NCBI RefSeq assembly: GCF_014201655.1
Contig: NZ_JACHEX010000001.1
Location: 248,001 to 312,000, forward strand
Reading direction: 5' to 3'
Length of the DNA: 64,000 nucleotides
Origin: Thermosipho japonicus
GTDB lineage: Bacteria; Thermotogota; Thermotogae; Thermotogales; Fervidobacteriaceae
Part shown: in pieces, positions 54,961 through 58,172 of the stretch
Position numbering within the stretch: position 1 is the first letter of the stretch
Layout: each line of letters begins with the position of its first letter
Translations under genes and position numbers: made by a program
Notes under the pieces: model-generated
Database searches by the model: none
The model's input: the letters and a program-made list of their open reading frames with translations, nothing else
What the model was told of the DNA's origin: nothing

Positions 54961-55221
54961 TTAACTATTTTTGATAGCTTTTACCAGTTCAGGATTGTCT
55001 TTTATCAAGGTATAAATTCCATGTGCAAGTGCTTGAGCTGAGAAAAGTATTCCGTGAATAGCTTCATGGAGTAGAGTAAGTAGCATTCCTTTTTTGGAGT
55101 GTTTTTCTACGTTGATGATTCCTTCTACATAGTCAATATTTCCTACCATATCCCCGCCTAAATCATCGTGAAACTGCACTTCATATTCAAAACCGTTAAT
55201 CTTAAGTGTTTTAATATTCAT
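54961..55221 (-). CDS. Small putative metallopeptidase-like protein with HExxH motif
   Basis: This protein has 86 residues if started at ATG 55221 (longer from TTG 55251). The middle has LLHEAIHGILF, an H-E-x-x-H zinc motif in a helix, preceded by VEGIINVEKHSKKG. The shape recalls a minimal ImmA/IrrE- or SprT-like peptidase of the kind found in phages. The C-terminal ligand cannot be assigned with confidence. It lies at the head of the late genes, next to the cargo terminator. Proteolytic activity is inferred only. Confidence 0.6.
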   Translation of the reverse strand: MNIKTLKINGFEYEVQFHDDLGGDMVGNIDYVEGIINVEKHSKKGMLLTLLHEAIHGILFSAQALAHGIYTLIKDNPELVKAIKNS

Positions 55222-55333
55222 TAACCCACGCCCCTTTCCCACAGCGGGCAAGCTCTTTATCTAAATTCCCGCTACCATTTTGTTTGAAACTATTTTGGCT
55301 ATTTGCGCTTTAAAATTAACAATTTGGCAACAA

Positions 55334-55360
55334 AAAAGGGACCTGTGATAGGTCCCTTTT
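55334..55360. terminator. Bidirectional terminator closing the cargo segment
   Basis: Arms AAAAGGGACC / GGTCCCTTTT with a 7-base loop lie 30 bases after the stop of the nuclease-like gene. They separate the cargo operon from the late phage genes. Confidence 0.9.
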
Positions 55361-55390
55361 AGTTAGCAATTGACAAATTTTTTAAGGATT

Positions 55391-56470
55391 TTATTCTACT
55401 TCTTCGTCTTCTAAATTTACATCGTATTTAAATAAAGGCAATTCATATTGTTTTCTATAATTGTATATTTCTGAGGAAAGATTTTTCTTAATTAATCTTT
55501 CCAAGGTTTTTCTAGTTCGTGATTTTAATAAATCTTTTTCTTTATTAACTTTGTAAACTTTTAATTTGAGATTTGAATCACCTATTTTCTCTTCACGAAC
55601 TTCATTTAAATCAGTTAAGTATTTATTTTTACACAATAACTTATCTACTACATATTGAAACAATTTAATTATCCTTTGAGGTTCATGTAATTTTGATATT
55701 ATCTCGTAATCTAAGTTATTTGATGTTTGCTTCAAGACATCTAAGACAGTAAATGATTCATCTTTCCAATGATTTCTTATAATATACCCCATTAACAGAG
55801 CGAGGAAAACACTGCAATTTATTCTTTCTAATTCATTTAATTCATTTATCTTCCTTTTGTAAACATTTTTATGAATATTATAAGTTCGAAAATCGAATAA
55901 ACATATATTCTTTTTTGATAATCGTTTTATGTTAGCTAAAAGTTCAAAATCTTTTCCTGCAATTTTTTCTATGCTTAAATATATATTTTCGGTTTTTATT
56001 TTTATTACGGAAAAATCAAATTTTATTTCTGGTAACAAATTACTTAGACTTTTTAGGATTTCATTAGCGAGATTTTCTCTGTTTTCAACAAATGATAAAG
56101 TTAAGCCTTTAAATGTGGCATTTTTTAAAATTTTTAAACCACTTCCAACAAGAGAATTATCATCAATGTTATTGTATGATAATATTTGCTCTCTTTTTAT
56201 TATATTGTCTACTTTGGAACTGTCTTTATATTCGAACATTATTAATTTATATTTATCGGAAGAATAATTATCTTTATATTTTATTACAGCATCAGGATTT
56301 ATTCTTTGCCGTTTGGCAGAGAATGAAACCTCATAACGAATATAAATATTTCCGTTTAAATAATTAGTTTTAAATTCTTTTTCAATTTTTTTAATTACAC
56401 TAAAAAAAATATTCATAGATTCGATATTTTCTAGATATTTAGTTTTTTCACATTCATCATGTTGTCCCAA
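55391..56470 (-). CDS. Unrecognised cargo protein with PD-(D/E)XK nuclease signature
   Basis: This 359-residue protein matches no family I know. Residues 59-60 (PD in INPDAVIKY), 80-82 (ExK in FEYKDSS) and Q95 (REQILSY) have the order and spacing of a PD-(D/E)XK nuclease core, with E47 in a preceding strand as a possible further ligand. The C-terminal 200 residues are helical and charged. The start is TTG 56470, 8 bases after GGAGG, 14 bases inside the preceding gene. It forms a two-gene operon with that gene, is AT-rich, and is followed by a strong terminator. Likely a DNA-cutting defence or exclusion factor, but this is inference. Confidence 0.7.
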   Translation of the reverse strand: MGQHDECEKTKYLENIESMNIFFSVIKKIEKEFKTNYLNGNIYIRYEVSFSAKRQRINPDAVIKYKDNYSSDKYKLIMFEYKDSSKVDNIIKREQILSYNNIDDNSLVGSGLKILKNATFKGLTLSFVENRENLANEILKSLSNLLPEIKFDFSVIKIKTENIYLSIEKIAGKDFELLANIKRLSKKNICLFDFRTYNIHKNVYKRKINELNELERINCSVFLALLMGYIIRNHWKDESFTVLDVLKQTSNNLDYEIISKLHEPQRIIKLFQYVVDKLLCKNKYLTDLNEVREEKIGDSNLKLKVYKVNKEKDLLKSRTRKTLERLIKKNLSSEIYNYRKQYELPLFKYDVNLEDEEVE

Positions 56471-57566
56471 TTTCTAGTTCCTCCAATTTATCAAGAATCT
56501 CTTCTTCTTTGATGTAAATTTTTATATTAGGATTAAATGATTTTCTTAGAAAATTTTCAATACGTTTGATTGAATTTGCACAACTTCCATTTAATAGAGT
56601 TATAAAAAGTCCGTAAGAATATAAATCTAAAACAAGATTACCACCAACGTGGAAATCAGCAGCAATTGTTTTGACATAATTTTTTCCCTTAAAAATGTCA
56701 AACGCCATAAGTTTTAATTCGTCGTTAGCCAAAATGGTTTTCATTGTTTTTTCCAACTTTTCGGGATCAATATTTTGGTTTGAAAACTCAATAAATACCA
56801 TTTCACGCCATTCTTGAAGTTTTTCAATTTTGATTAATTCATTTCCATAAGATGAGGTGATATTAAAAATTGTGTCCCTGACTATATCAAAATCATAACC
56901 ATAAAATGTGACTTTACCATTGTTATAAATATAAAGATAAACTACATCTTCATTATTATCATCAATTCTGAATTTACCTTTTACGAAATTCATGGGAATA
57001 CCATATTGTTTTAGTTCATTAGTTTTCTTGGCTAAATATGAAGGTGATTTTGAACTAAATGCAATATCAAAATTTTCTTCATCATCTAAAAGATCCGCAC
57101 TAAATTCACTTGATACTTCAATTCTATAAGCTTCATATTCATCAGCTATTTTGTTTACATTTAGCCATTGAAAATCAAAAAAAGAAGAAGAATTAACTAA
57201 TTTTTTAATAGCAGAATCACTTTCTTGTGATTGCGAAAAAGTAAAAACAGGAATAAATCTAAATCTTATATCACTATTTTCATAGAAAAGATAAGGATCA
57301 ACAAACAATTCCACTTTACCATCATTTATAATCAAAATCTCTTTGCTATTGTCAAAATGAATATCTGCTTTGTAGAATGTACGTTTTATTTCTTTTATAA
57401 TCAAATCAAACAGTTCATTTTCAGATAATCCGGGATAAGTTTCTAATATATATGATTTCGGAATTCCCGATTCATATTCTAATTTATGAATTTTTTTTCC
57501 ATGTATAGACTCTTCCATATACATATCAATAGTTTTATATAAATTTTCCCTGTTAGTAATTTTCAT
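56457..57566 (-). CDS. Unrecognised cargo protein, partner of the nuclease-like protein
   Basis: This 369-residue acidic protein has no recognised domain. It contains strand-rich stretches (KEILIINDGKVELFVDPYL; VVYLYIYNNGKVTFYGYD) suggesting repeated beta units, and a C-terminal helical region (SIKRIENFLRKSF). ATG 57566 follows AGAGGGTGAT. It is first in the operon and overlaps the nuclease-like gene by 14 bases, so both are made together. A sensor or specificity role is possible. Base composition is more AT-rich than the structural genes, which suggests separate origin. Confidence 0.65.
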   Translation of the reverse strand: MKITNRENLYKTIDMYMEESIHGKKIHKLEYESGIPKSYILETYPGLSENELFDLIIKEIKRTFYKADIHFDNSKEILIINDGKVELFVDPYLFYENSDIRFRFIPVFTFSQSQESDSAIKKLVNSSSFFDFQWLNVNKIADEYEAYRIEVSSEFSADLLDDEENFDIAFSSKSPSYLAKKTNELKQYGIPMNFVKGKFRIDDNNEDVVYLYIYNNGKVTFYGYDFDIVRDTIFNITSSYGNELIKIEKLQEWREMVFIEFSNQNIDPEKLEKTMKTILANDELKLMAFDIFKGKNYVKTIAADFHVGGNLVLDLYSYGLFITLLNGSCANSIKRIENFLRKSFNPNIKIYIKEEEILDKLEELEIGTT

Positions 57567-57583
57567 ACAAATCACCCTCTAAA

Positions 57584-57612
57584 AAATTATACCAAAAAAA
57601 TTTCAGATTTTA
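57584..57612 (-). promoter_or_regulatory. Promoter of the two-gene cargo operon
   Basis: A minus-strand TATAAT lies 18-24 bases before the start of the first cargo gene, with TTAAAA about 16 bases further upstream. This gives the operon its own transcription start, independent of early and late phage promoters. Confidence 0.6.
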
Positions 57613-57758
57613 ACATAAATTTATAAAGATAAAATTTGGTTTTCACCCAACTATAAAAAAGAGTAAACAATGCAGTTATTAAATTGCAAAAAAGACTTTT
57701 CGCCCCTTATAGTGCTTTTTTGTAATATGTAATATTCGAATATTTGTTTTATGTTAAT

Positions 57759-57787
57759 TTAACAATAGAGCATCTATATTGTATAAT
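57759..57787 (+). promoter_or_regulatory. Near-consensus promoter of the TAG-interrupted small gene
   Basis: TTAACA (57759-57764), 17 bases, TATAAT (57782-57787): five of six and six of six matches to sigma-A boxes. It lies 21 bases before the ATG at 57809. Such a promoter would be active in the lysogen without phage factors. Confidence 0.8.
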
Positions 57788-57808
57788 AATAAATTGGAGG
57801 TGATAAAA

Positions 57809-58080
57809 ATGTATAAAAAAACTGTAATTATTGTGATTTTATAGGTTCTGATAATAATCAAACCACTAATTGTAACACTTATTAACGGTAACAACATATT
57901 AAAAGATATCGAATGTGTTACAGCATAGGTTAGTGAACTCATTTCTACAACTGACATCATAGAGAACATCTATTCATAGATAGAAGAATTGTAGAAAATT
58001 ATATACCAACAAACAAAAAAAGAATTACTGCAACAATCTAAAAACAAACGTAAAAAGCGATTAATCAAAAAAAGGTCACC
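57809..58080 (+). pseudogene. Small membrane/coiled-coil gene interrupted by four in-frame TAG codons
   Basis: A near-consensus promoter, GGAGGTG 6 bases before ATG 57809, and a terminator at 58084-58106 frame a reading frame without TAA or TGA. It contains TAG at 57842, 57926, 57977 and 57992. If TAG is read as Gln, the product (about 90 residues) has a hydrophobic N-terminus (KKTVIIVIL, then VLIIIKPLIVTLI), a coiled coil (VSELIST...IEEL.KIIYQQ) and a basic tail (KNKRKKRLIKK). Four CAA codons are intact; no CAG is present. The frame runs into the terminator without a stop. TAG ends other genes in this phage, so the strict reading is an 11-residue peptide. Decayed gene or amber read-through are both open. 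Confidence 0.6.
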
Positions 58081-58083
58081 TCC

Positions 58084-58106
58084 CCCGGCTTTGCCCGGGT
58101 TTTTAT
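58084..58106 (+). terminator. Terminator of the TAG-interrupted gene
   Basis: CCCGG / CCGGG arms with a short loop are followed by TTTTTATT on the plus strand. It ends the short transcript from the promoter at 57759. Confidence 0.85.
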
Positions 58107-58107
58107 T

Positions 58108-58138
58108 CCAAAAAAACAAAACCGGGCCATGCCCGGCA
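58108..58138 (-). terminator. Terminator of the early phage operon
   Basis: CCGGGC / GCCCGG arms around CAT, followed on the minus strand by TTTTGTTTTTTT, lie about 35 bases after the stop of the regulator gene. It isolates the early operon from the cargo segment. Confidence 0.9.
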
Positions 58139-58172
58139 TTTTCGCATACTTATAGATTCTATGGAAATTATA

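Follow-up and report, generated by a model that had tools for sequence, protein, structure and literature searches.

The RecB-like nucleases are a subgroup of the PD-(D/E)XK superfamily that takes in the RecB and Cas4 types and region X of HsdR. Motifs I to III together with a QxxxY motif define this subgroup, to which HsdR and also enzymes of DNA repair and recombination belong (PMC2602864). Two described antiviral systems, Shedu (SduA) and Hachiman (HamAB), employ effectors of the same PD-(D/E)XK superfamily. In Hachiman, the nuclease HamA is restrained by its partner HamB (PMC12278908). Hotspots of ∼1 to 5 kb between conserved prophage genes are a known home of antiviral systems (PMC9122126). 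The 64,000-nucleotide stretch of Thermosipho japonicus DNA analyzed here (the window) includes a prophage with two overlapping genes, A and B, that combine several of these traits. Their most probable role, although well short of certain and read from genomic context, is that of an undescribed two-component nuclease-based antiviral module carried as prophage cargo.

The likeness to known systems is partial. Similarly to the RecB-like nucleases, B has the acidic-ExK-QxxxY order of motifs, and, with moderate support, the first 190 residues of a Bacillota homologue align with their fold; B differs from them by having no helicase or P-loop, by its association with A, and by not belonging to any Pfam family at the cut-off. 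B shares with the Shedu and Hachiman effectors the PD-(D/E)XK superfamily, and the SduA structure 8ps5 appears in the fold list of the homologue model with a Z score of 4.7. However, neither protein of the window pair is recognized by a PADLOC model, and HamB is a helicase whereas A has no P-loop. The features of the locus are as follows.

56457..57566, minus strand: gene A, the conserved partner of B (369 aa, ATG start; open reading frame with homologues in 16 further loci, model pLDDT 77.3)
55391..56470, minus strand: gene B, predicted RecB/HsdR-type PD-(D/E)XK nuclease (359 aa, TTG start; motif and conserved columns)
55331..55363, minus strand: intrinsic terminator 3′ of gene B (hairpin, position approximate)
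57586..57613, minus strand: possible promoter of the pair, TTAAAA-16-TATAAT with TG before the second hexamer (10 of 12 matches)
54969..58145, no strand assigned: variable stretch housing the pair and a 96-aa gene (54961-55251), from comparison with the G003 and G056 prophages

Both open reading frames are intact on the minus strand at this location in the prophage, and the two overlapping genes of 369 and 359 codons that had been described in an earlier note on this DNA are thus real, with reading frames that share 14 nt. Stretches resembling ribosome-binding sites precede both starts, AGAGGGTGA ahead of A and GGAGG ahead of B. The same note had credited the pair with its own promoter and terminator, of which the latter is the better supported. 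The hairpin after B has a folding energy of −21 kcal/mol (61-nt stretch; z −4.55), and none of 200 shuffles was equally stable; it is absent from the list produced by a simple terminator scan. The region contains 22 promoter-like sites compared to 23.8 expected by chance, so that the promoter upstream of A is plausible but weakly evidenced, its occurrence not being above chance. The GC content of the pair is 0.25, compared to 0.361 and 0.35 in the flanks, and the profile drops from ∼0.35 to 0.24 near position 55300 and rises again near 57900 to 58000.

The surrounding prophage is of the siphophage type, with terminase, portal, major head, tape measure, single-stranded DNA-binding, and DnaD-like genes recognized by PHROGs. 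Relatives of its portal protein are encoded in 7 of the 103 genomes of the phylum, including the T. japonicus genome itself, and those from genomes G003, G056, and G046 are 82%, 65%, and 45% identical to the portal of the window, respectively. The prophage of G003, a member of the same genus, is colinear with that of the window on both sides of the pair; the DNA similarity ends at position 54968 and restarts at 58146. At the position of the pair, it carries other genes, namely, an NYN-domain gene (PF01936, E value of 6.3e-17) and small open reading frames. The NYN-domain gene (L044:8815-9381) lies on the opposite strand. In the G056 prophage, only 142 bp lie between the small-terminase-like gene and an open reading frame that looks regulator-like by eye. 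Given the other genes in G003 and the 142-bp gap in G056, the pair has been inserted at a site whose content differs among related prophages. This variability, together with the low GC content and its steps, supports the view of the pair as inserted cargo, already taken when the sequence was first inspected.

In B of the window, the residues that had been singled out as a restriction-type nuclease core (Pro59-Asp60, Glu80-Tyr-Lys82, and Gln95) are all present, and Gln95 opens a QxxxY motif (QILSY, ending in Tyr99) that had been missed; Asn20 is a further conserved residue. The order of an acidic Asp or Glu, an [DE]xK 12 to 19 residues downstream, and a Gln 7 to 14 residues after that is found in all 17 members of the B family described below, 16 of which also retain the Tyr of QxxxY (the B protein from G046 has Leu). 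The columns conserved in at least 15 of the 17 sequences are the motif positions, Asn20, and Phe240, and no others. The pattern P[DE]-x8-24-[DE]xK-x6-20-QxxxY appeared in 11 of 5,000 shuffles of the window protein. The Pfam family HSDR_N_2 matched one Bacillota B protein with an E value of 0.0066, below the family cut-off. Such motif evidence argues strongly for B being a nuclease of the RecB/HsdR type.

A structural model of the B protein from Anoxybacillus (pLDDT 83.6, pTM 0.77) served as a stand-in for that of the window. Residues 1 to 190 gave 2vld as the best structural match (Z 7.2, 3.1 Å over 105 residues), with none reaching a Z score of 8, and most of the top structures have the PD-(D/E)XK fold; a Foldseek search alone yielded no significant match for this model. 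The fold list of the homologue is thus consistent with the proposed core and lends it moderate support. For residues ∼215 to 320 of the same model, the matches are small winged-helix domains from Cdt1, cohesin, and McbR (Z 4.3 to 5.3), so that the C-terminal domain of B looks like a winged helix with a possible DNA-binding function.

In A, 13 residues are invariant in all 17 sequences: Lys37, Glu42, Arg103, Asp131, Trp134, Gly217, Tyr240, Glu248, Asp304, His306, Cys329, Asn331, and Arg335. The last five fall within an invariant DxH and a C-x-N-[TS]-x-x-R motif that is likewise found in all 17, being common to hyperthermophilic archaea and Bacillota. A, the conserved partner of B, is probably a cytosolic control subunit with a putative conserved site formed by these two motifs. 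Its structural model is fair (pLDDT 77.3, pTM 0.80) and yields recurrent weak matches to the TATA-binding protein (TBP), RnlA, CENP-L/N, and RdgC; a TBP-like fold is probable, with weak support from the model. The RnlA structures of the RNase LS system are matched weakly (Foldseek probability of up to 0.96; Z 7.2 over 84 residues), and a viral model of the RNaseLS-like type is matched with a probability of 1.00 at a TM score of 0.18. The RnlA family of Pfam was not found in five A proteins (E-value limit of 1 for P0002 plus three relatives and of 0.1 for the one from Anoxybacillus), and A further differs from RnlA in having a nuclease as its partner, not an RnlB-like antitoxin. The best fold match of the C-terminal domain is the S-adenosylmethionine decarboxylase SpeH (2iii; Z 8.5, 2.9 Å over 93 residues). 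A relationship to SpeH found no support in a profile comparison with hhalign (probability of 1.1% against 23 SpeH rows, a narrow set drawn from 25 loci) and is kept as a lead; the self-processing Ser of SpeH is not retained in A, as judged by eye.

The statement that neither protein belongs to a known family stands, as the window A and B gave no convincing match to Pfam, PADLOC, PHROGs, or NCBIfam models. PADLOC models also matched none of nine homologues and operon neighbors, one of which is a PemK-like protein, and alignment profiles of A and B produced chance-level matches only when compared to solved structures. No publication tied to the pair was encountered in the literature searched on Thermosipho prophages, PemK in defense islands, and MazF in Tn7-like cargo, nor in that on two-gene defense systems and antiphage TBP-like nucleases. 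The Methanocaldococcus jannaschii plasmid tags MJECL21-25 and MJECL32-36, whose assignment to the genes is a guess, likewise led to no publication tied to the pair.

Looking for the pair in other genomes, a check proposed in the earlier note, revealed 16 further pairs, some of them beside known defense genes, in Thermotogota, Bacillota, and Archaea (Methanocaldococcus and Halobacterium). By source, the 17 different pairs comprise 4 from the plasmid collection (Metabacillus, M. jannaschii, Halobacterium hubeiense, and Lysinibacillus irui), 1 from the viral collection, 11 from the genome sets, and that of the window. A single-sequence A query found no match among the genome contigs; an alignment query was then used and recovered seven loci, one of them being G046 again. 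Homologues of A are encoded in 3 of the 103 Thermotogota genomes, T. japonicus included, and, within one Bacillales order, in 5 of 397 genomes, including two that had already been found. Scans of viral contigs retrieved the contig of the window prophage itself, one Bacillota-type contig, and the G387 prophage, whereas none of 50,697 phage records matched any of the three queries for A or the one for B. The pair is rare and sporadic, yet mobile. A short protein encoded on a Natronosalvus plasmid (L039:4959-5399) resembles the C-terminal part of A only; its gene belongs to a series of small hypothetical genes, has no recognized B-like neighbor, and was excluded from the 17 pairs.

The gene order is A-B in all 17 cases, with B directly after A at a spacing of −32 to +30 nt. 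Pairwise identities of A and B are correlated (r of 0.96; none of 2,000 permutations was as high), and B diverges faster, with a mean pairwise identity of 25% versus 34% for A. Across the family, B proteins are 12 to 30% identical to that of the window. BLAST found the B protein of G091 (E value of 9e-38) and did not find those of G046 and Metabacillus. Beyond the closest relative, homology of the B proteins rests on gene position, motifs, and codivergence and not on BLAST.

Mobile elements or defense genes surround most of the pairs. In 14 of the 17 cases, a count that the use of plasmid and viral collections as sources favors and that was made partly by eye, the pair resides on a prophage, a plasmid, or a Tn7-like element, next to a recombinase, or near defense genes. 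Such a context was seen for 8 of the 11 pairs from the genome sets (G091, G046, Planococcus, Oceanobacillus, P. zanthoxyli, Bacillus 522, G430, and G387), with the recombinases of G046 and G430 recognized by eye; the stretches read around the pairs of Anoxybacillus, Ectobacillus, and G471 contained no clear defense or mobile neighbor. TniQ or TnsD genes are found upstream of two pairs. In a PADLOC scan, all 10 neighbors submitted from 6 loci matched a defense model, which should not be taken as a rate because they had been picked by eye for their defense-like appearance. The matches were as follows.

G091: AbiLi, AbiLii, PDC-M26A, and, more weakly, PDC-M26B
M. jannaschii: AriA/GajA/Old, an OLD/GajA-like ATPase
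Planococcus: REase_I
Oceanobacillus: MTase_II/DrmMII and REase_II
Bacillus 522: MTase
G430: RT-Protease_XI (retron)

In G091, the PDC-M26 match corresponds to a two-gene unit of an AAA protein and an McrC-like protein (L011:11222-15818) that lies ∼0.5 kb upstream of the pair and in the same direction. In G046 (L012:3675-7216), the pair is located directly before a serine-recombinase-like gene, and the relative of the portal protein is on another contig; perhaps this is a prophage of the same family in which the pair occupies the integrase end.

Ten of the pairs, nine from Bacillota genomes or a plasmid and one from a viral contig, carry a third gene of ∼240 codons upstream of A, and they make up one side of a supported branch of the A tree (100/99). 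The products of these ten genes align throughout, and both of the two that were scanned matched the PemK family (PF02452) with E values of 6.2e-12 and 9.8e-10 (46.1 and 39.1 bits, versus a cut-off of 23.1). Although they share this domain with PemK and MazF, they are longer and have N- and C-terminal extensions. According to open reading frame lists and annotations, the other seven pairs have no PemK-like gene next to A, and PF02452 had no match in the entire genome from which the window comes. On the viral contig, a DDE transposase gene is found between the PemK-like gene and A (L035:3325-4893).

Several lines of evidence lead to the defense reading: the nuclease core of B is kept in 17 of 17 proteins across Bacteria and Archaea despite the low identity to the window protein; A and B are adjacent and codiverge; the window pair has a foreign composition and a variable position; the loci are predominantly mobile or defense-related; the occurrence is sporadic; and the proteins are soluble and have no P-loop. 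In the proposed mechanism, A would keep B inactive within a joint complex until another phage infects the cell or a plasmid enters it. Such an event would supply A with a signal, either a nucleic acid or a small molecule, upon which A would release B; by cutting DNA, B would then halt either the invader or the infected cell. In the Bacillota clade, the PemK/MazF-like protein would probably act as a second, RNA-directed effector. Sensors of defense systems usually vary more than the effectors, and the higher conservation of A than of B counts against this reading for that reason. A more specific proposal, which we offer tentatively and consider doubtful, is that A is a new TBP-like sensor or enzyme whose invariant DxH and CxN[TS]xxR site would either bind or modify a small molecule or a DNA base, which would turn on a RecB-like nuclease with no need for an NTPase; in the Bacillota clade, the same switch would also drive a MazF-like RNase, giving DNA and RNA effectors.

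Other accounts of the pair draw on the same observations. The faster divergence of B would be expected if B carried sequence specificity, as in a restriction-modification-like pair in which A either marks host DNA in some way or reads a mark and B, equipped with a DNA-binding domain of its own, cleaves either unmarked or marked DNA. The resemblance of B to HsdR-type domains (the subthreshold HSDR_N_2 match and the motifs), its possible DNA-binding C-terminal domain, and the potential of the invariant Asp, His, Cys, Asn, and Arg of A for catalysis fit this scheme as well. It is nevertheless rather unlikely: the genes adjoining the window pair include no methyltransferase, A has no methyltransferase match in Pfam, and no DNA-modifying enzyme is among the fold matches listed for A. 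Overlapping genes on plasmids and prophages, the extra PemK/MazF-domain gene of the Bacillota clade, and the weak structural similarity of A to RnlA/RNase LS would suit an addiction module that retains the mobile element, with B as a toxic nuclease and A as its antitoxin. Most antitoxins are not the more conserved partner; here A, the would-be antitoxin, is, and both proteins are large, which leaves this version little chance. It overlaps with the defense reading, since toxin-antitoxin pairs often act in defense.

The pair could also have a role like that of phage exonuclease-annealase pairs, serving mobile elements in recombination or repair. A is weakly similar in fold to the recombination-associated protein RdgC (Z 7.0; also to phage RdgC), and nucleases of the QxxxY type include repair and recombination enzymes (PMC2602864). 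Replication genes are present elsewhere in the prophage, related prophages do without the pair, and AbiL, restriction, and Tn7-like neighbors fit cargo better than they fit core recombination, which makes such a role improbable. Two further candidates were rejected. A motor-driven pair similar to McrBC, powered by GTP or ATP, would need a P-loop, and the G-x4-GK[ST] signature occurs in none of the 17 A and 17 B proteins. Superinfection exclusion at the envelope, one of the functions originally suggested for the pair, is not supported, given the lack of any strongly hydrophobic segment in A or B (maximal 19-residue mean hydropathy of 1.38 and 1.28, respectively; highest value in the family, 1.52). 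Absence of a nuclease core and homology to structural or replication proteins of phages, named in the earlier note as grounds for giving up its proposal, were both looked for, and neither overturned it.

If the defense reading is correct, the A-B pair represents an undescribed family of nuclease-based defense systems that is common to Bacteria and Archaea, rare but mobile, and found in two- and three-gene forms. A, with no known family or ATP motor, would then illustrate another means of restraining a nuclease before a virus arrives. In addition, the comparison points to a variable position in a family of Thermotogota prophages where more such systems may reside. At this position in the window, the low-GC stretch upstream of A (57567-58100) is without a clear gene and may be a remnant of inserted DNA. 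On the other side, the 96-aa gene at 54961-55251 (minus strand) adjoins the pair; its product contains an HEAIH motif, belongs to phrog_1233 (function unknown), and resembles a small metallopeptidase, and a relative is encoded elsewhere in the G056 prophage.
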